Source: Eubacterium sp. (GTDB lineage Bacteria; Bacillota; Clostridia; Lachnospirales; Lachnospiraceae). Taken from it: a stretch of DNA of 64,000 bases. The position numbers were made by a program, and so were the translations under genes. Under the pieces are notes generated by a model. The model saw nothing but the letters and a program-made list of their open reading frames with translations. It was not told the DNA's origin and made no database searches. Shown in pieces: positions 2 to 14,345 of this stretch (its first letter is position 1; the number at the start of each line of letters is the position of its first letter). The stretch covers positions 104,779 through 168,778 of the forward strand of contig JAILOU010000039.1 of assembly GCA_024690665.1 (NCBI GenBank). Reading direction: 5' to 3'.

Positions 2-853
2 TTCGATTCCTGGGTTGAAGAGATGATGAAGACCTATCGCAGCGATAAGAATGCCATCGATAACCCGAATGTTCTGATTACAGATTTTGAGGATGCTGTC
101 ACCAAGAGTGATATTACAAGATTTTTAGAAGCATTTAAAAAGAAAGGCTATAATGTAAGATTTGTAGATACAAGAAAGCTTGCATTTGACGGAGAACACC
201 TGATTGATCCTTCTGACGGTACTCCGTTCCATGTGGTTTATCGAAGACTTGTTACGAGTGATATTGTGGCGAACAAGGACAAGTGTAAGGCATTTATTGA
301 TGCGGTAGCACAAGAAAAGGTCTGTATTATCGGACATTTTAGAACGACCGTTACACATTCTAAGATGATTAATGTTGCGCTCTTAGATGAGATGACAAAG
401 GCCATCATGACACAGGAAGAATGGGATTTTATTCAAGAACATGTTCTGCCAACATACAGACTTCGCAATGATCAAAAGAATCTGGATATTACTGTCGTTA
501 AGAATAATCCTGCCGGATGGATTTTAAAACCGGAAGATGACTATGATGCGAAGGGGGTATATGCCGGCATCAATTATACGCAGGAGGAGTGGGCGAAGAT
601 TGTCGATGAGAATATCGATAATGATTATGTTGCCATGGAATTTTATAATCCACCACTTGCGAAGATCTTCCCGATTCGTCCGCTTCCATATGAGCCGGAT
701 CTTATGGAACCGGAAGAATGGCATTCCATGACAGGAATCTATTCCTATAACGGAACTTTCTATGGATTCTTCTCGCGTATGGGAAAAGAGGGCGTAATCT
801 CAGAAAGTCATGACGGCGTCAGCATTCCTTCATTTGGCGTAGACCTTAATTAG
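2..853 (+). CDS. Circularly permuted ATP-grasp / glutathionylspermidine-synthase-like protein, 5' truncated by window edge
   Basis: Frame is open upstream of the listed ATG (FDSWVEEMMKTYRSD...). C-terminal part has 'WILKPEDDYDAKGVYAG' and 'DYVAMEFYNPP' ATP-grasp-like segments. Confidence 0.6.
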   Translation, partial: FDSWVEEMMKTYRSDKNAIDNPNVLITDFEDAVTKSDITRFLEAFKKKGYNVRFVDTRKLAFDGEHLIDPSDGTPFHVVYRRLVTSDIVANKDKCKAFIDAVAQEKVCIIGHFRTTVTHSKMINVALLDEMTKAIMTQEEWDFIQEHVLPTYRLRNDQKNLDITVVKNNPAGWILKPEDDYDAKGVYAGINYTQEEWAKIVDENIDNDYVAMEFYNPPLAKIFPIRPLPYEPDLMEPEEWHSMTGIYSYNGTFYGFFSRMGKEGVISESHDGVSIPSFGVDLN

Positions 854-858
854 AACAT

Positions 859-948
859 AACAGATTTTATACCATTTTTAACAGGAAACATCCTATTATC
901 GTGCCTTTTTCTGTGTCATAATTGGTTTATCAAAAGAAACTATAAAAT
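859..948 (+). promoter_or_regulatory. Putative AraC-family activator-controlled promoter (copy 1)
   Basis: AACAG at 859 and 880 (21-bp period) and TATCAAAAGAAACTATAAAAT at 928-948. The same blocks with identical spacing occur at 3345-3434. Confidence 0.65.
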
Positions 949-972
949 GTAAGAGAAACGAGGTATATTAGG

Positions 973-2022
973 ATGAAAACAATTTATGCGCAGGCTCAGG
1001 CCGACGGATCGGTTGAGTTAAAAGAAAAAGAAGTAGGAACTCCGGGAAAAGGTGAAGTCTTATTAAAGGCGAAGTACAGTGCCATGAGCCCGGGAACTGA
1101 GTGTGGACTTTTACATAACGCAATTGTTCCACTTCCGACAGGCATCGGATATGCAATGGCTGCAGAAGTAATTGAGGTTGGAGAAGGTGTAGAAGAGTTT
1201 AAGGTTGGTGATCATGTTGTTGCAACGGTAGAACATGCACAGTATGTCATCACATCAGAACTTAATTGTACGCTTTGTCCGGAAGGCGTTGATTTAAAGC
1301 AGGCAGCATTCTGGAATCTTGGTCATACCGGTATGTATGCTCTTCGTCGCTCTAAGATTGAGATGGGCGAGCCTTGTGCAGTACTTGGTCAGGGATTTGT
1401 CGGAGCCATCACTGCGCAGTGTGCAAGACTTGCAGGTGCCTGCCCGGTTATCGTAACAGACTTAGATCAGGGACGTCTTGATGCCGCTAAGAAGATGGGC
1501 GTTGATTATGCAATCAATACCAAGGAGGATCCTAAGGGTCTTGAAAAAGTTGTAGAAGAACTTGGACTTGACGGACTTCCTGTCATCTATGAAGCAACAG
1601 GAGCAAGAGGACCTCTTATGCAGGCTGCTGAGCTTGTAAGTGAAAGAGGACGCGTTGTAATGATTTCACAGGTACATGGACAGGAAATGCCTCCAATTGA
1701 CGATCCAATTATGCAAAAGGGTGCAAGTCTGATTGGTACATACGTAAACTCTAAACCATATAAGCTTAAGAGAGCAGATCTTCTGATTGATGGAACCTGG
1801 CCACCTGTTATGGGCAAGAAGTTAAATGCTTATAAAAACGCAGATGTATGGACATCAGATGAGGATATCAAAGTATTCTTAAATATGATCAAATACGGAA
1901 AACTTGATATTACACCGCTCATTAGTCATGAGTTTAAGTATACGGATATTCCGAAAGCATATGCAGAGCATGTCTTCCCGGACGTTGACCCTGCAGTAAC
2001 CGGTGGTTTGATTATTTGGTAG
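973..2022 (+). CDS. Zinc-type medium-chain dehydrogenase/reductase
   Basis: 349 aa with MDR features: GVEEFKVGDHVVA and the Rossmann segment CAVLGQGFVGAITAQ. Confidence 0.8.
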   Translation: MKTIYAQAQADGSVELKEKEVGTPGKGEVLLKAKYSAMSPGTECGLLHNAIVPLPTGIGYAMAAEVIEVGEGVEEFKVGDHVVATVEHAQYVITSELNCTLCPEGVDLKQAAFWNLGHTGMYALRRSKIEMGEPCAVLGQGFVGAITAQCARLAGACPVIVTDLDQGRLDAAKKMGVDYAINTKEDPKGLEKVVEELGLDGLPVIYEATGARGPLMQAAELVSERGRVVMISQVHGQEMPPIDDPIMQKGASLIGTYVNSKPYKLKRADLLIDGTWPPVMGKKLNAYKNADVWTSDEDIKVFLNMIKYGKLDITPLISHEFKYTDIPKAYAEHVFPDVDPAVTGGLIIW

Positions 2023-2048
2023 TAGAATCTCCTTAAAATAAGAAAAGC

Positions 2049-2094
2049 AAGAAAAGAGAGAATTTTGTCTTCGGGCAAAATTCTCTCTTTTCTT
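2049..2094. terminator. Bidirectional terminator-like hairpin
   Basis: AAGAAAAGAGAGAATTTTG-tcttcggg-CAAAATTCTCTCTTTTCTT, 19-bp perfect stem between convergent genes. Confidence 0.8.
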
Positions 2095-3280
2095 ATTTGC
2101 TTTGTATTTTCTTTTTGTATCTGGTAGGGGGTTCGCCATAGGTGTCCTTAAATACATTTGTAAAATTACGGGTGTTTGAATATCCGACGGCTTCTGAGAT
2201 CTTGCCGATGCTGTAATCTGTGTTTAGTACAAGATCGAGTGCATGGTCCATACGGACCTGTTTGAGATATTCCGTATAATTGCATCCAACTTCTTTTTTG
2301 AACATGTGACTAAAGTAATTTGGGCTTACGCAGGCAATGTCAGCAAGGATATCAACAGACATCTCTTCCATGTAATTTTCATTTATATAAGTCTTAACCT
2401 TCTCGATGATGGCAGAACCGGATAGACGTCCACTGTTGTAGATGTTAGGAAGAAACTTTTCGTAGTATTCATGAATATGTTGTTTTAATTCTGTGTAGGT
2501 AATGGAGTTTAAGACCTTCTCCTGGAGAGAGTCTTGCATAAAGTAAAAATCTCCATCAAAGAGTTTGTATTTTTGTAGCGAAGACGTTAAAGAACCTGTC
2601 ATATTCATGGCTCTCATACGGACAGCAAAGTGGTTGCCATAGTGAATCTTTTTAATCACATCGATTAAGTAATCAATTTTATCAAGAGCATGTTCGTCCT
2701 TGATTAAGATGGCATGTAAAGCGTCGTCAAAGTAACGGTCATAGTCTTCTTGAGACAGGTTGTAGACTTGTTTTACATTTTGAAAGTCAATCAATGGATA
2801 CGGTTCAAAAAAGTATAGTCGATAGGCAAAGCGAGCGGTTGTCAGTGAATTATGAATCTGACGCAGGGATTTGGCACGAAGGCCGATTCCAACATAAATT
2901 GGAACCTGAAAAGAATCGCTCAGCTGTTTTTGCAAAGGTTTGATTTTTTGCTCAACAAAGGTTGTAATCTCACTAAGAGGATAGATGCCTAAAAGTGTAA
3001 TCATATACTGAGAGTATTCAATCATAAATCCTGTTTCGCTCATGCGAAATTCATCAATTAGCTGGTTATACAGAGTAAATAAAAGTTTTGTTGTTTCCAG
3101 ATAAGAACGTTCCATGGAATCTGTGAAGATATCTCTTAGATAACCAAATGTAATTCCGACGGCAAAATGTGTGTCAAAATCAATTTTTTCAATCAGAGCA
3201 GAATCGTCGTTATCGGAGCTAAGATTTTGATTAAAGGTATTAAAAAAATTTGTATTAACATAATCAGATCGATGCAACAT
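2093..3280 (-). CDS. AraC-family transcriptional regulator (C-terminal HTH_18)
   Basis: C-term 'VDILADIACVSPNYFSHMFKKEVGCNYTEYLKQVRMDHALDLVLNTDYSIGKISEAVGYSNTRNFTNVFKDTYGEPPTRYKK' is a classic AraC/YesN DNA-binding domain. Confidence 0.92.
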   Translation of the reverse strand: MLHRSDYVNTNFFNTFNQNLSSDNDDSALIEKIDFDTHFAVGITFGYLRDIFTDSMERSYLETTKLLFTLYNQLIDEFRMSETGFMIEYSQYMITLLGIYPLSEITTFVEQKIKPLQKQLSDSFQVPIYVGIGLRAKSLRQIHNSLTTARFAYRLYFFEPYPLIDFQNVKQVYNLSQEDYDRYFDDALHAILIKDEHALDKIDYLIDVIKKIHYGNHFAVRMRAMNMTGSLTSSLQKYKLFDGDFYFMQDSLQEKVLNSITYTELKQHIHEYYEKFLPNIYNSGRLSGSAIIEKVKTYINENYMEEMSVDILADIACVSPNYFSHMFKKEVGCNYTEYLKQVRMDHALDLVLNTDYSIGKISEAVGYSNTRNFTNVFKDTYGEPPTRYKKKIQSK

Positions 3281-3344
3281 ATCAGGCTACCTCCATGGTT
3301 TTCATGTTTTATGATTTTATTATAAAATATAAAGACAAAAAAAC

Positions 3345-3434
3345 AACAGATTATTACTGTTTTTTAACAGAAAATGACATATAAATCGGTCAAAATTAAT
3401 GACATAATAAGACTATCAAAAGAAACTATAAAAT
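3345..3434 (+). promoter_or_regulatory. Putative AraC-family activator-controlled promoter (copy 2)
   Basis: AACAGATT (3345), TTTTTAACAG (3361) and TATCAAAAGAAACTATAAAAT (3414-3434), with the same spacing as 859-948. Confidence 0.65.
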
Positions 3435-3460
3435 TATATGGAACAAAGGAGCAATTGACT

Positions 3461-4864
3461 ATGGAATTAAAAAATGTAAAGGGTGTTTACAAAACACATC
3501 CGGAAAGACGCGAAAGTAAAAATATCGCAACCATGGCAGAAATTATTGAAGCGGTAAATGGAATCTTAAATCCAAACGGACCTAAGATCAACTGGTTTGC
3601 ACCTGCTGAAGATGCAGTTGCAGCAGTGCATTTTAAGGATGGAAAGTACGATGAGAAAACTTCAAATCCGGCTGTTGTATATGGCGGTGAAATCTCGGAT
3701 AAGGAAGTAAAAGACCTTAAGGTCGTAGCATACGAAGGAAACCGCGGAGCAATCTATGCAGAAGGAGCCGGAACAGATGTAACGGTAGACGGAGCTTATA
3801 TCTCTCTTCAGGGAGACGGTACCGGAATCGGTGGACCTGCTAGTGGTGCTTCCGTTAAATATGATGCAAAACTTACCATCAAGAATGCAATTATTGACAC
3901 AATGGGAAGAACCCGTTACTCAACAGCAGCAGAAGAAGGTGCAGTACTGAAAGTATATGATTCTGTAATCTGGTCTCATGGTATTCCATATGGAGAAGGT
4001 ATCGAGAAGCCAACCGCACTGATGTCAACACCACCTGGAGCACTTGAGATGGATGGTAATACCCGTACGCACTGCTCTATGTCTAATTCACTCAGTTATT
4101 TCTATAATTCTAAGATTATCTGTGATGGATGGGCAGCACTTTCAACAGAGTCTTCAGAAGGTTTTGTATATCTAGAGGCAAATGACTGCGATATCGTATG
4201 TACCAAGAATGGTTACGGCGCATATGCAGACCCTGGATGCCACGACTTTTTCAATGATTGTCATTTTGACATGGCTCGTATGGCTGCAATTATCGCAGGT
4301 AACTCTGATATGACATTTAATGACTGTGATTGTGACTGCGGTACTTACTTTGCGCTGAGCCACTGCGTAAACGGATGGCCGGAAGAAGTTGGTGAGATTA
4401 CGGTAAATGGCGGTAAGATTAAGACGAAGAAAGAAGCTTTCTTAATCAAGAGCCATAACTTTATTATGGATATGTGTGATGTAGACCTGTCTTCTGAATG
4501 CGGTGTATTAGTTCATACAATCGTAAATGATGACCCGTGTGCAACCGAGGCTGTTGATCCATATGGCGTTAACGTACTGATGACAGATATGGATGTTGCA
4601 GGAGACCTGGTTCATGAGGATACGACTCGTGAGATGTGGGTAGAACTGACAAGTACTGTTCTTACAGGTGCAATCAAGAATGCCAATATCACCATCGATG
4701 GCGGCAGCAAGTGGATTGCAACAGCAGATTCTACTGTTACATTTATGAATGATGTTTCACCGGCACAGATTGATGCAAAGGCTGGTGTAACCATTACTGC
4801 TAAGGGTGCTGAAGCAATGACGATAGATCTTCCAAGCGGAGGAAAACTGGTCGTTACTGCTTAA
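3461..4864 (+). CDS. Right-handed parallel beta-helix protein, no obvious signal peptide
   Basis: RBS AAAGGAG before ATG 3461 (MELKNVKGVYKTHPERRES...). Repetitive short beta-strand/Asn/Asp-rich segments. Confidence 0.6.
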   Translation: MELKNVKGVYKTHPERRESKNIATMAEIIEAVNGILNPNGPKINWFAPAEDAVAAVHFKDGKYDEKTSNPAVVYGGEISDKEVKDLKVVAYEGNRGAIYAEGAGTDVTVDGAYISLQGDGTGIGGPASGASVKYDAKLTIKNAIIDTMGRTRYSTAAEEGAVLKVYDSVIWSHGIPYGEGIEKPTALMSTPPGALEMDGNTRTHCSMSNSLSYFYNSKIICDGWAALSTESSEGFVYLEANDCDIVCTKNGYGAYADPGCHDFFNDCHFDMARMAAIIAGNSDMTFNDCDCDCGTYFALSHCVNGWPEEVGEITVNGGKIKTKKEAFLIKSHNFIMDMCDVDLSSECGVLVHTIVNDDPCATEAVDPYGVNVLMTDMDVAGDLVHEDTTREMWVELTSTVLTGAIKNANITIDGGSKWIATADSTVTFMNDVSPAQIDAKAGVTITAKGAEAMTIDLPSGGKLVVTA

Positions 4865-7520: not shown

Positions 7521-8909
7521 ATGTCAGTTGTAGGTGGAATTATGGTGCCGCATCCACCACTAATCATACCGGAGGTTGGTAGAGGTCAGGAGAGCGTCAT
7601 CAGGAAGACGAGCGAAGCTTATGAAAAGGCTGCACAATTTGTTGCTGATTTAAAACCGGATACAATCGTGGTCATCTCTCCTCATACGATTATGTATTCA
7701 GATTATCTGCATATATCTCCGGGGTATCGGGCGAGTGGTGATTTTGGCAGCTTTGGAGCAGGTCAGGTACGGATTGCGGTAGAGTATGATGCCGATTTGT
7801 CTAATCGATTTTGTGAACTGGCAGAAGATGCACATATTCCGGCAGGCTATGAGGGAGAACGAGATGCATCGCTGGATCATGGGACGCTTGTGCCGCTTTA
7901 TTTCATTTGCAAAAAATATAGAGACTTTAAGGTGGTTCGCGTGGGAATTTCGGGAATACCATTGGCGCAGCAGTACCGATTTGGAACGCTGATTGCGCAG
8001 GCGGCTAAAGAGATGAACCGAAGAGTTGTTGTTGTGGCAAGCGGAGATCTGTCACACAAACTGCAAAAGAGCGGACCATACGGCTTTGATCCTTCAGGAC
8101 CTGTCTATGATGAGAAGGTTATGGATGTGATGGGAAAGGGAGAATTTTACAAATTGCTTCACTTTGATGCAGGACTGCTCGACAAAGCTGCAGAGTGTGG
8201 ACACCGTTCCTTTGTCATCATGGGAGGAGCGTTTGACTGTCTTAGTGTGGAGACAACAAAGTATTCCCATCAGGATGTAACAGGGGTCGGATATGGCATT
8301 TGTACCTATAAAGTATTACATGATGATGAAACAAAAGATTATCTAAATCGTTATGAACAGGAACTGGAAAAAAAGAGGGAAGAGCAGATGTTAATGGAAG
8401 ATGCTTATGTTTCTTTGGCCAGAAGGACGATTGAAAACTATATTGCTGGAGAAAAATTAATCGGCGTGCCGGAAGGGCTGCCGCAGGAGATGTATCAAAA
8501 GAGAGCCGGAGCATTTGTGTCCTTACATATTGACGGAGGGCTTAGAGGCTGCATTGGAACAATTGGGCCGACAACAGGGTCTGTAGCAGAAGAAATTATT
8601 CAAAATGCGGTTTCTGCGTCTACGAAGGATCCGAGGTTCTCACCGGTGCGAGAAGAGGAACTGCCGTACCTTGAATATTCTGTCGATGTGCTTGGAGAGC
8701 CGGAAATAATCGATTCGCCCAGTCAGCTGGATGTCAAAAGATATGGTGTAATCGTGACAAAGGGATTAAAGCGGGGGCTTTTACTTCCGGACCTTGATGG
8801 CGTAGATACGGTAGAGCAGCAGATCGCAATTGCAAAGCAAAAGGCAGGCATCGCGCAGGAGGACAAGAAGGTACAATTAGAACGTTTTGAAGTCATCAGA
8901 CATCATTAG
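7521..8909 (+). CDS. AmmeMemoRadiSam system protein: MEMO1-like (N-term) fused to AMMECR1-like (C-term)
   Basis: N-term VVGGIMVPHPPLIIPEVGRGQE...VISPHT...LDHGTLVPLYF; C-term GGLRGCIGTIGPTTGSVAEEIIQNAVSAS (LRGCIG motif of AMMECR1). Confidence 0.93.
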   Translation: MSVVGGIMVPHPPLIIPEVGRGQESVIRKTSEAYEKAAQFVADLKPDTIVVISPHTIMYSDYLHISPGYRASGDFGSFGAGQVRIAVEYDADLSNRFCELAEDAHIPAGYEGERDASLDHGTLVPLYFICKKYRDFKVVRVGISGIPLAQQYRFGTLIAQAAKEMNRRVVVVASGDLSHKLQKSGPYGFDPSGPVYDEKVMDVMGKGEFYKLLHFDAGLLDKAAECGHRSFVIMGGAFDCLSVETTKYSHQDVTGVGYGICTYKVLHDDETKDYLNRYEQELEKKREEQMLMEDAYVSLARRTIENYIAGEKLIGVPEGLPQEMYQKRAGAFVSLHIDGGLRGCIGTIGPTTGSVAEEIIQNAVSASTKDPRFSPVREEELPYLEYSVDVLGEPEIIDSPSQLDVKRYGVIVTKGLKRGLLLPDLDGVDTVEQQIAIAKQKAGIAQEDKKVQLERFEVIRHH

Positions 8910-9857: not shown

Positions 9858-11000
9858 ATGACAACCATTATCGTAACAGCAGAAGTTGTTAGCGCCGTGT
9901 TTTTAATGATTGTCTTGCTTGGTAGTTACTTAGGACGAGGTGCAAGCAGCTCAAAGAGAAGAACAAGATATTTTCGTCTTATGGCGCTTTTTTGTATGGG
10001 AGCGCTTATTATTGATGCCATCAGTTATATGATGGAAGGGCATAAGATCCCAAGCGGGGTTGTATTTACATTTACCATGATAGCTTTTTTGATGGTGGAT
10101 ATCTTAATTGCGATGTATGCAAGATATGTTTCAACGGTAATAACCGAGAAGGGGCATCTGTATTCGAAACTTGGGAATGTAGTTTGCTTTTTGTGTATAA
10201 TTGATATGGTCATCGTTGTAATTACATCTTTTAGTGGAGCTTTATTTCGAATTGAAAATCATGTAATGGTTTATGGACCGTGGCAGGCGTACATGGCATT
10301 GCTTCCGGTAATTTGTGTCGTTATTATATTTGCGGCAATTCTTTATAATCATAAACTGATTGGAAAGAAAAGCTGTCATGTGCTTTGCTCATATATTATC
10401 TTCCCGATGATTGCACTTGGAATTCAGAGCTTTATCATCGCGCTTGATTTTACTTACGTTGGCGTGGCAATGTCAATTCTACTTGTTTATGTCTTTATGC
10501 AAGATAGTATTATTACGGAAATTAAGACAAGAGAAGAAATTCTCGCAGAAGTATCGGCGACAGATACACTGACAGGACTTTATAACCGAAGAAGTTATGA
10601 GAAGTTTTTAAAGGCAATGGACTCAGAATTGGAAGTTGGCGTTATATTTTGTGATATTAACGGATTAAAATATGCTAATGATAACTATGGACATGAGGCC
10701 GGTGATCAGCTAATCTGCAATTTTGCCGAGTTATTAAAAGAACGATTCGAGACAAAAGGAATCTTTCGGATATCCGGTGATGAATTTGTTATCTTTTCGT
10801 TATCTACGGTAAAACGTAAGTTTGATGATGATGTACAGCGGCTTAAAGCGGATGTGCAACAATATGATGAGATGGCGGCGGTTGGCTGGGCCTATGGTTC
10901 AAGTGAACAGATTGATGACTTGATTAAGGCTTCAGAAAAGATTATGTATAAGAATAAAGAGCTGTATTATAAAGCGAGACACATTCAAAAACGTTTGTAA
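9858..11000 (+). CDS. Membrane-anchored diguanylate cyclase (GGDEF)
   Basis: Multiple N-terminal TM segments. DTLTGLYNRRSYEKFL...RISGDEFVIF (SGDEF variant of GGDEF). Confidence 0.88.
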   Translation: MTTIIVTAEVVSAVFLMIVLLGSYLGRGASSSKRRTRYFRLMALFCMGALIIDAISYMMEGHKIPSGVVFTFTMIAFLMVDILIAMYARYVSTVITEKGHLYSKLGNVVCFLCIIDMVIVVITSFSGALFRIENHVMVYGPWQAYMALLPVICVVIIFAAILYNHKLIGKKSCHVLCSYIIFPMIALGIQSFIIALDFTYVGVAMSILLVYVFMQDSIITEIKTREEILAEVSATDTLTGLYNRRSYEKFLKAMDSELEVGVIFCDINGLKYANDNYGHEAGDQLICNFAELLKERFETKGIFRISGDEFVIFSLSTVKRKFDDDVQRLKADVQQYDEMAAVGWAYGSSEQIDDLIKASEKIMYKNKELYYKARHIQKRL

Positions 11001-11032
11001 GCCATACCTGTTGTGAGGTGTGGCTTATTTTA
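10999..11032 (+). terminator. Intrinsic terminator
   Basis: AAGCCATACCTgttgtgAGGTGTGGCTTATTTT. Confidence 0.75.
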
Positions 11033-11129
11033 GTTTGCTGAAATTAAAATAGGAGAAATCTCCTATGGAACAAGCGATTTAATCGTGTTAGTATGACGAT
11101 AAGGGGAATAAATGAGTTATGAACTATGT

Positions 11130-11290
11130 ATAATGGAAGTCGGTGAAAGACCGACGCTGTGTCTCAGCAACCGTAACAGTTTACAACAAAGCAATATGTC
11201 ACTGGGAGTAATTCTGGGAAGGCGCTTTGGAGGTTTTTGTAAATGAAGACTGGAGCCGGTAGACCTGCAAGTTCGTAAGCATCCTGTCAT
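11130..11290 (+). promoter_or_regulatory. Cobalamin (B12) riboswitch
   Basis: GGAAGTCGGTGAAAGACCGACGCTGTGTCTCAGCAACCGTAACAG (GGAA..GGTGAAA..CC..GC....GCAACCGT), CACTGGGAGTAATTCTGGGAAGGC, and GAAGACTGGAGCCGGTAGACCTGC match the B12-box/cobalamin aptamer consensus. Confidence 0.9.
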
Positions 11291-11320
11291 CTGAGGAAGT
11301 GGCAGCGGGCTTTTTTTTGT

Positions 11321-11348
11321 GCGCGCATTTCCGGATGCGTGCTTTTTT
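11321..11348 (+). terminator. Terminator hairpin, probable riboswitch expression platform
   Basis: GCGCGCATttccggATGCGTGCTTTTTT between aptamer and ATG. A further T8 tract follows CTGTCA...TGGCAG at 11284-11318. Confidence 0.65.
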
Positions 11349-11384
11349 GTTCTCCAAAATATCAATTTATATGAGGAGGAAGTC

Positions 11385-14261
11385 ATGAAAAAGATGAAAC
11401 TCGCAAGAGTACTGTCCTGTGCATTGGCTGTAACGGTTTTTACAACATTCACAGGATTTGGCAGCAATTTGACAAGTGCTTATGCTGCCGACGGAACGAT
11501 GAGCGGCGAAGGTACAGCTGAGTCGCCTTATATTGTGGAAGATGCTGCTGATTTTGCAGCAATGCAGGCCGAAGGATACTATAAGCTGGGGTCTGATATT
11601 ACAATTACCGCATCATGTGAGCAGGATTTTGTTGGTACATTCGACGGAGCGGGACATACCATTACGGTAACTGGATCAGACGGAGCGTTTTGCTATCTTT
11701 ATGATGGTGGAGTGATTAAGAATCTTACAATTGCTGGTCAGATTGAAGGTTCCGGAGAAGTTGGCGCAGTTGTAGATGTAGCTAAGGGTGGAACAATTAC
11801 AAAATGCATTAATACTGCTTCACTTAATATTACTGGTAGAGGAAGAGCCGGCGGAATTGTCGGTAATTCAACCGGTAGCTCAAATACAACAAATGTAGAA
11901 AATTGTGTGAATAAAGGAGAAATTGTAACTACCGGTACGAATTCTTTTGCCGGTGGTATATATGGCAATATATCGGGTAAAGTGACGGTTACAAATTGTT
12001 ATAATACAGGCACTATTACCAGTGCGAACAGAGCAGGTGGAATTGTTGGAAATAACGGGGTGACTCTGACAAAGTGTTATAATGCAGGAACTGTCACCGG
12101 AGAAAGTGATACGGGTCTTTTGGTTGGATGGAATAATGGATCATTAAATAACTGTTATGATATTCATACAGAGACAGCGCTCGAATTAGTCGGCGCAGGA
12201 AGCGGAACACAGACAGAGTGTGCAAAGCTGACAGATGCAGCAACCTTACTCACAAATCTTGGAGATGCTTACGTTGCTGATACTACAAGCATTAACGGAG
12301 GTAATCCGATTCTGGCATGGCAGGCTCCGCAGCAGGTTGTAACAGATCCTGCCGATCAGAGCGTTGTAAATGCATTAAAGAGTGCATTTGACAAAGAAAA
12401 AAAGACGTATCGTCCGGAATATGGAACAGATGAAAATATCTGCGATATGGTAAAGGCTGATGTTAGTGCGTATAAGGATATTCCGAATTTTGATAAAGAA
12501 AAGCTTGAAGTTACCGTATATTCCGCAGATATTCCTGATGTCATTGGTACAGACGGTGCAATTCATTATATAAATGCAGAAGAATTAAATACCGTCAGTG
12601 GAATAAATTCCAAAAATGTAGGATGCAGATTTACTTTTACATATGGAACAGCAAGTGCCGTAACCGGTGAAGATGAAATCGAAGGTGACGACTGGTATGA
12701 TGATGGAACTCCTGAGGTCAATACAACCGTTCAGGTTGGCTGGGACCGCGACCATGTAAATACGAAGATAGATGCTGAGGCTGAACTTCTTACAGCAGAT
12801 GTTATGAAGAAAGATAATGAAAGTCTTGACAGCGTTAAGAGTGATCTTTCCCTTCCGCAGATTCTTGGTGCTAATCCTGTAAGAAAGGTATGGTCTCAGA
12901 TTTCATGGGAGTCTTCTAATACCGATGTAATTGCAATTGAGGAAGAAGCGTATAGTGGATTAACAACGCCTCTTAAGGGTGTGATTACACAGCCGGAAGA
13001 AGATACGCAGGTAACTCTCACTGCAACGATTAAGGTGAATGATTCTATATTGAATTCTAATCTGGAGAAGGTAACAGATTTTAAAACCATTACAAAGACC
13101 TTTACAGTAACAGTTAAGGCAGCAGAAAAACATTTTGCAACAGAAGAAGAATTACAACAACTTCTTAAGACATATTACACAAAGGATGTATTAAAAGACT
13201 CCGCAACCGGTGAGAAACTAGATACGGAGAATTGTACAGGAGACATCCAGCTCTTAAGATATACAAAAGTAAAAGATCAGGATGGAAATCTGGTATTTAA
13301 TAACAAAGAAATTACCGTTACATCTTCGGATGAAAAAGTTATTTCTATTTCCGGATATACAGCGAATGTGGATCGTTTTCAGACAGAGAATAAGACGGTT
13401 AACCTGATTGTAACCATGACCAGAGATAACGTAACGGCAAGCATTCAGATTCCGGTTACCGTAATTGCAGTGACCGATGCAGAACTTGATGCGGAAATTG
13501 AGAAGATGGAAGTAGTAAAAGCGCATTATTTCGATGCTTTAAATGATGGTACTTATGAAAGTGCTAATTGCATTACCGGCAATCTTCATCCATTCCAGGA
13601 AGCTAATGTAGATGAGCAGGGAAAAGTAACCTGGGTTTATGAGAAAAACAAAATGACAGATGCAGGTATCGTGCCGGATAGTTATTTTGACGATCCATGG
13701 AAGATGGAAGCAAAAGGTTATAACTTATTTAAGTCTTCCAATGACAATGTACTGCAGCATGAGAACCTTGTATATCATCAGCCGGACAAGGATACGAAGG
13801 TTACCATTACTTCGTGGCTTTCCAGCGAGAAGTTTGGAAAGTTTGCCAAGAATCATCCTGAGAACGAAAAACTGCAAAAACTCTATAAGCAGGAAGTATC
13901 GGTTACCGTGACGGTGATTGGAAAGAATGCCGGTGATTCTGGTAATGAGCAGGTGAAAGATCCGGATGACAAGGATAAGAAGGACCCGGTAGACAATAAA
14001 GATCAAAAAGACAAGAAGGACAAAAAAGACAAGAAGGACAAAAAAGACAAGAAGGATAAAAAAGACAAGAAGGATAAAAAGGACAAGAAGGATAAAAAGG
14101 ACAAGAAGAAAGATAAGAAATCCAAGAAGAAGGATAAGAAAGACAAGAAGTCTAAGAAGTCTAAGAAGTCTAAGAAGTCCAAAAAATCCAAGAAGTCCAA
14201 GAAATCTAAGAAGTCTAAAAAATCTAAGAAGAAAAAGGGCTCAAAAAAGGAAAACAGATAG
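11385..14261 (+). CDS. Secreted GLUG-repeat / Ig-like surface protein with Lys-rich (KKD/KKS) tail
   Basis: AGGAGGA RBS before ATG 11385. Signal peptide ending TSAYA-ADG. GLUG-like GGIVGN/GGIYGN repeats, Ig-like strand modules, and a ~90-residue Lys/Asp then Lys/Ser tail. Confidence 0.8.
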   Translation: MKKMKLARVLSCALAVTVFTTFTGFGSNLTSAYAADGTMSGEGTAESPYIVEDAADFAAMQAEGYYKLGSDITITASCEQDFVGTFDGAGHTITVTGSDGAFCYLYDGGVIKNLTIAGQIEGSGEVGAVVDVAKGGTITKCINTASLNITGRGRAGGIVGNSTGSSNTTNVENCVNKGEIVTTGTNSFAGGIYGNISGKVTVTNCYNTGTITSANRAGGIVGNNGVTLTKCYNAGTVTGESDTGLLVGWNNGSLNNCYDIHTETALELVGAGSGTQTECAKLTDAATLLTNLGDAYVADTTSINGGNPILAWQAPQQVVTDPADQSVVNALKSAFDKEKKTYRPEYGTDENICDMVKADVSAYKDIPNFDKEKLEVTVYSADIPDVIGTDGAIHYINAEELNTVSGINSKNVGCRFTFTYGTASAVTGEDEIEGDDWYDDGTPEVNTTVQVGWDRDHVNTKIDAEAELLTADVMKKDNESLDSVKSDLSLPQILGANPVRKVWSQISWESSNTDVIAIEEEAYSGLTTPLKGVITQPEEDTQVTLTATIKVNDSILNSNLEKVTDFKTITKTFTVTVKAAEKHFATEEELQQLLKTYYTKDVLKDSATGEKLDTENCTGDIQLLRYTKVKDQDGNLVFNNKEITVTSSDEKVISISGYTANVDRFQTENKTVNLIVTMTRDNVTASIQIPVTVIAVTDAELDAEIEKMEVVKAHYFDALNDGTYESANCITGNLHPFQEANVDEQGKVTWVYEKNKMTDAGIVPDSYFDDPWKMEAKGYNLFKSSNDNVLQHENLVYHQPDKDTKVTITSWLSSEKFGKFAKNHPENEKLQKLYKQEVSVTVTVIGKNAGDSGNEQVKDPDDKDKKDPVDNKDQKDKKDKKDKKDKKDKKDKKDKKDKKDKKDKKDKKKDKKSKKKDKKDKKSKKSKKSKKSKKSKKSKKSKKSKKSKKKKGSKKENR
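13975..14258 (+). repeat. Low-complexity 9-nt-period coding repeat (KKD)n then (KKS)n
   Basis: Tandem GACAAGAAGGACAAAAAA... then TCTAAGAAGTCTAAGAAG... Confidence 0.9.
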
Positions 14262-14345
14262 GAGTAAAGGAGAAGATGCGAGCATCTTCTCCTTTTTTCT
14301 TTCGTAAGGTATAATAAAGCTTATGAAAGACAGAGGATAAAAGCA

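Follow-up and report, generated by a model that had tools for sequence, protein, structure and literature searches.

Why would a cobalamin riboswitch precede the gene of a large secreted protein that has no recognizable transport or biosynthesis domain? This question is raised by a locus within a 64-kb stretch of DNA from a Eubacterium sp. of the Lachnospiraceae (hereafter the window), where an initial annotation had proposed that a B12 aptamer, followed by terminator hairpins, controls a B12-related surface protein. An Rfam search bears out the aptamer: the covariance model RF00174 matches positions 11108-11286 (+) with 59.1 bits (E 4.2e-12) against a gathering score of 31.5, and the alignment covers the full model (1-189). 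All of the aptamer motifs listed in the annotation lie inside this alignment, which is the sole gathering-level Rfam match in the window. Two terminator hairpins do follow the aptamer, and no gene lies between the riboswitch and the reading frame of the secreted protein, both as originally claimed. The features of the locus are these:

10997-11028 (+), hairpin terminating the GGDEF gene upstream and separating that gene from the riboswitch unit
11108-11286 (+), cobalamin riboswitch aptamer (RF00174), full-length model match
11284-11305 (+), first hairpin of the expression platform, terminator-like and with a T run after it
11321-11342 (+), second hairpin of the platform, a terminator with a stem of 9 pairs ahead of TTTTTT
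11373-11379 (+), ribosome-binding site GAGGAGG, read directly in the sequence
11385-14261 (+), gene of the 958-aa secreted protein, with its likely start ATG at 11385 behind the ribosome-binding site
11385-11486 (+), Sec-type signal peptide, residues 1-34 (...SAYA/ADG), assigned by eye from the translation
11490-12374 (+), GLUG-like repeats (residues 36-330), with a sub-threshold score of 10.6 bits and homology to the GLUG regions of L036, L090, L093 and L094
12411-13928 (+), four-module Ig-like array, residues 343-848, defined by alignment A1 and profile searches and common to all homologs
12804-13121 (+), aBig_2 (atrophied bacterial Ig) module, PF20578, inside the array
13938-14258 (+), basic tail, Lys/Asp-rich then Lys/Ser-rich, residues 852-958, at the position of DUF4430 in many homologs
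14266-14295 (+), strong terminator after the gene, closing the unit

The leader terminators between the aptamer and the ATG form an expression platform ahead of the start codon. None of 40 shuffles contained a hairpin as good as the second one (dG -13.4), and the region 10980-11420 holds 4 terminator-like sites, compared to 0.2 per shuffle. In its full-length aptamer match and its leader terminators the element resembles other RF00174 riboswitches with a terminator platform; it differs from them in what lies downstream, which is a gene for a putative surface array protein and not a transporter, synthesis or isoenzyme gene. That gene had been described as a 980-aa secreted ORF. The secretion signal stands, but the length does not: the GTG that opens the 980-aa frame (11319) falls inside the terminator region, and the real start is likely the ATG at 11385, which yields 958 aa. 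Because terminators are found both before the aptamer and after the gene, the transcription unit is probably monocistronic.

Does the protein itself contain anything that is known to bind B12? The aBig_2 match scores 36.4 bits (cut-off 27), and Pfam sees parts of the array as aBig_2; for the four-module array as a whole there is no Pfam or NCBIfam model. The cut-off for the GLUG model (PF07581) is 20.5 bits, and the homologous regions of L093 and L094 score 42.8 and 31.7 bits. DUF4430 (PF14478) gave no match in the window protein at E values up to 1. We considered a hidden DUF4430 and rejected it, given the missing PF14478 match and a tail made up of Lys-rich repeats. An alpha/alpha toroid is likewise absent from the window protein, which the toroid of locus L080 does not match although it matches L032, L033b and L034, and domain searches matched neither a beta-propeller nor any other known B12-binding domain. 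Among solved structures, the array has only weak matches, which fall in the Ig-like portions of an arabinanase and of a LigB-like protein. An AlphaFold2 model of residues 341-852, built without an alignment, reached a pLDDT of 33 and was unusable.

The region after GLUG served as the query in searches of whole genomes, many of them drafts, from the same family (397) and the same order (392), first as a single sequence and then as profile A1 (11 rows, 487 positions). Full or near-full arrays were found in 15 genomes, the window included, and the array homologs in A1 are 25-50% identical to the window array. Two matches were left out, one in G236 (L039) that covers only about 77 residues and one in G171 that covers a single module. 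The spread is patchy, with full arrays in 9 of the 397 family genomes, which counts against the explanation that we favor below. A related-locus search with the window locus returned a GLUG-region match only. In G704, the array gene apparently lies in two frames (L092 171-4706, with frames 171-3290 and 3297-4706), and may be a pseudogene or reflect a sequencing error. With generic aBig_2/GLUG surface proteins the window protein shares an aBig_2 match above cut-off and GLUG-like repeats. It is set apart from generic aBig_2 proteins by a four-module array without a named family, and by its riboswitch, to which such proteins are rarely linked.

A survey of riboswitch linkage among relatives, which the initial annotation had proposed, confirmed it. 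In 10 of the 15 array genomes (the window, G159, G229, G134, G285, G195, G687, G695, G708 and G655), the array gene directly follows a same-strand cobalamin riboswitch that scores above cut-off; these genomes represent 8 genera, and the 10 loci are incompletely independent, as two pairs share a genus. The match in G285 is marginal (32.0 bits), and those in G708 and G695 reach 111 and 120 bits. Two further genomes have sub-threshold matches: one of 22 bits at the expected position in G132, and an AdoCbl match of 31 bits in G689 that is upstream of the preceding secreted-protein gene. We detected no riboswitch close to the array genes of G030, G287 and G704, the contig of G030 ending about 630 nt upstream. 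At all 11 loci formed by the 10 linked ones and G132, a terminator hairpin is situated between the aptamer and the start codon (judged by eye in the relatives), and at none of them did more than 1 of 40 dinucleotide shuffles do equally well.

We rejected chance as the source of this linkage, for a genome has about 1-6 listed riboswitches, yet 10 of the 15 array genes begin no more than about 500 nt downstream of one. As a control, we examined 33 strong generic aBig_2 loci from 150 family genomes. A listed riboswitch lay no more than 5 kb upstream of two of these, both of which lack the full array, and aBig_2 alone was accordingly rejected as a B12 marker. The window genome encodes other large GLUG proteins (L030, contig C6, 65-78 kb, frames of 1319 and 1450 aa) that have no riboswitch; GLUG by itself is therefore no B12 marker either.

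The riboswitch and the array gene also appear to travel together. In the congener G002, the flanking genes are in the same order, with 63-79% identity, and both the riboswitch and the array gene are absent; an LRR gene begins within about 120 bp after the GGDEF gene. The terminator directly after the GGDEF gene of G002 is homologous to the window terminator at 14266-14295. That both elements are absent from this syntenic locus indicates that they were gained or lost in a single step.

If the window protein has a role in B12 metabolism, what do its relatives say of that role? Many of them join the array to further domains. DUF4430, a C-terminal-type or beta-like domain of transcobalamin (the B12 carrier of animals), is found in L033-L038, L090 and L095. 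L031, L032, L091 and L092 have a second domain that recurs in a DUF4430-like protein encoded by the window genome, and L032 and L034 have the toroid. The anchors differ: L095 has SLH, L033 has choline-binding repeats, and L034 gave a weak LPXTG-type match. The array gene of G689 (L091) follows ECF S, A and T genes in an operon, and these are 58-68% identical to the ECF genes on contig C35 of the window genome. DUF4430 itself shows a strong association with cobalamin riboswitches: in 150 family genomes, at least 22 of 107 matches are preceded, at a distance of no more than 8 kb, by such a riboswitch on their own strand, and among the matches listed 0 pairs were in reverse order and 2 were on opposite strands. 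Many of the DUF4430 proteins of the family are about 150 aa long.

Riboswitch-led surface-protein cassettes occur in tandem at two loci, where a second such gene lies beside the array gene. It encodes a toroid protein in L033 (2887-3075 and 1-2822) and a DUF4430 protein in L038 (15561-15747 and 15753-19001).

Several clusters elsewhere in the window genome bear on cobamides. Contig C35 (L080 6470-14504) encodes a toroid protein, a lipoprotein with DUF4430 and a further, DUF4430-like protein, together with ECF T, A and S components and CbiZ, an adenosylcobinamide amidohydrolase (E 4e-49); no Rfam cobalamin riboswitch was detected near this cluster. On contig C22 (L029), a second cobalamin riboswitch (8260-8477) heads an operon on the minus strand (genes from 8095 down to 1). 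The products of this operon are a cobalt chelatase, CbiK (E 6e-71), that is secreted and joined to an Ig-like MBG domain, a secreted repeat protein of 952 aa with no match in Pfam, a PBP, FecCD and an ABC ATPase. It is odd for CbiK to be secreted. The strongest cobalamin riboswitch of the genome (104 bits) is on contig C12 (L028, 2230-2430, +), just after a corrinoid-protein gene, and faces tandem repeats (2481-3130) and a convergent gene, with no clear downstream gene. Because the genome encodes at least one B12 synthesis protein, CbiC, and has four B12-binding-domain matches, this organism uses cobamides and may make them. Given CbiC, scavenging may not be essential to it.

Transcobalamin-like surface proteins of low-GC Gram-positives have been predicted to scavenge B12 (Burroughs et al. 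2007, PMC1796856). As described there, these proteins, which contain SLBB (= DUF4430, PF14478), have Ig-like partners and occur in operons with CbiO/CbiQ-type parts; the portions of that paper considered here make no mention of riboswitches. The window protein resembles them in being secreted and multi-domain with Ig-like modules, and its homologs carry DUF4430; a secretion signal in the window protein and an association with cobamide-uptake genes in its relatives are both present. It differs from them in having neither DUF4430/SLBB nor a toroid and in forming a stand-alone riboswitch cassette. A second comparison is with BtuG and BtuH of Bacteroides (PMC6143338, PMC8941943), which are likewise cell-surface proteins from cobamide-riboswitch-controlled loci and are used to gain B12. 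Those are Gram-negative surface proteins that bind B12 directly, BtuG via a beta-propeller, whereas the window protein has no such domain and has no transport gene in its unit. In the portions of the literature searched, we found no description of a riboswitch with DUF4430 or Ig-like proteins, nor an earlier description of the riboswitch-controlled, DUF4430-less GLUG/array form.

Taken together, these comparisons suggest that the window protein is probably part of B12 scavenging by these bacteria. The initial claim of a B12-related surface protein has fared well in this respect: riboswitch linkage, transcobalamin-like domains, anchors and an ECF operon in relatives give good support to a surface role in cobamide acquisition. 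The reading that we favor, and hold to be fairly probable, is that aptamer, leader terminator, the gene of the secreted protein and the final terminator form a self-contained cassette repressed by B12, and that its surface protein takes part in cobamide scavenging, more likely as a scaffold or partner than by acting alone, because it has neither DUF4430 nor the toroid. At high intracellular cobamide, the aptamer would bind it and transcription would stop at the leader terminator, as in an OFF switch. When cobamide is scarce, the 958-aa protein would be made, exported by Sec and held at the cell surface, perhaps via its cationic tail, where it would contribute to scavenging. Candidate partner binders are the toroid protein and DUF4430 lipoprotein of contig C35, with their ECF transporter and CbiZ; the PBP-FecCD-ATPase set of contig C22 is another candidate.

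Alternatively, the protein could capture B12 directly at the cell surface, as the initial annotation proposed, with the array (or the array plus the GLUG region) as its corrinoid-binding module. Only the array is common to all riboswitch-linked homologs, including the DUF4430-less proteins of the window, L093 and L094, and its conserved W, Y, N and Q positions in alignment A1 would suit direct binding. Ig-like modules, however, resemble spacers, the weak structural likeness is only to Ig-like parts of other proteins, and in fusions with DUF4430 or the toroid those domains are the likelier binders. We therefore regard direct capture as possible but doubtful, and a scaffold or partner role as at least as likely as corrinoid capture by the window protein itself. 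The broader proposal, in which the four-module array is a new corrinoid-binding architecture and GLUG-array proteins are a further class of surface B12 catchers that spread as riboswitch-gene cassettes, is rather speculative.

Typical features of adhesins and cell-wall proteins include Ig-like arrays and GLUG regions, and SLH and choline-binding domains occur among the relatives, which raises the question of whether the protein is instead a B12-repressed adhesin or polysaccharide binder that attaches the cell to a producer cell, mucus or fiber when cobamide is low. We think this unlikely, as the repeated transcobalamin-like fusions and the ECF-operon placement point to the vitamin itself, and the GLUG proteins of contig C6 have no riboswitch. 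The pairing could also be accidental or decayed, the remnant of a DUF4430 scavenger that lost its binding domain and with it the B12 role; a low-complexity Lys tail where many homologs have DUF4430 would fit such a history, as would the one homolog (L092) that is broken into two frames. Yet the frame, signal peptide, ribosome-binding site and both terminators of the window gene are intact, and the DUF4430-less form recurs in another genus. L093 and L094 can be aligned with the window protein along about 845 aa (about 847 aa for L094) with 28.7% identity; both have its plan of GLUG, array and basic C-terminal part without DUF4430, behind the two strongest riboswitches of the set (120 and 111 bits). 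Because they share this plan and carry these riboswitches, the DUF4430-less form is a type that recurs and more than just a damaged gene, and decay seems quite improbable.

The analysis defines an unnamed family of ~500 aa whose role is flagged by B12-riboswitch control, and it names concrete candidate proteins. If the array protein binds or presents B12, surface capture of the vitamin would be extended by a part that has not been recognized as transcobalamin-like.
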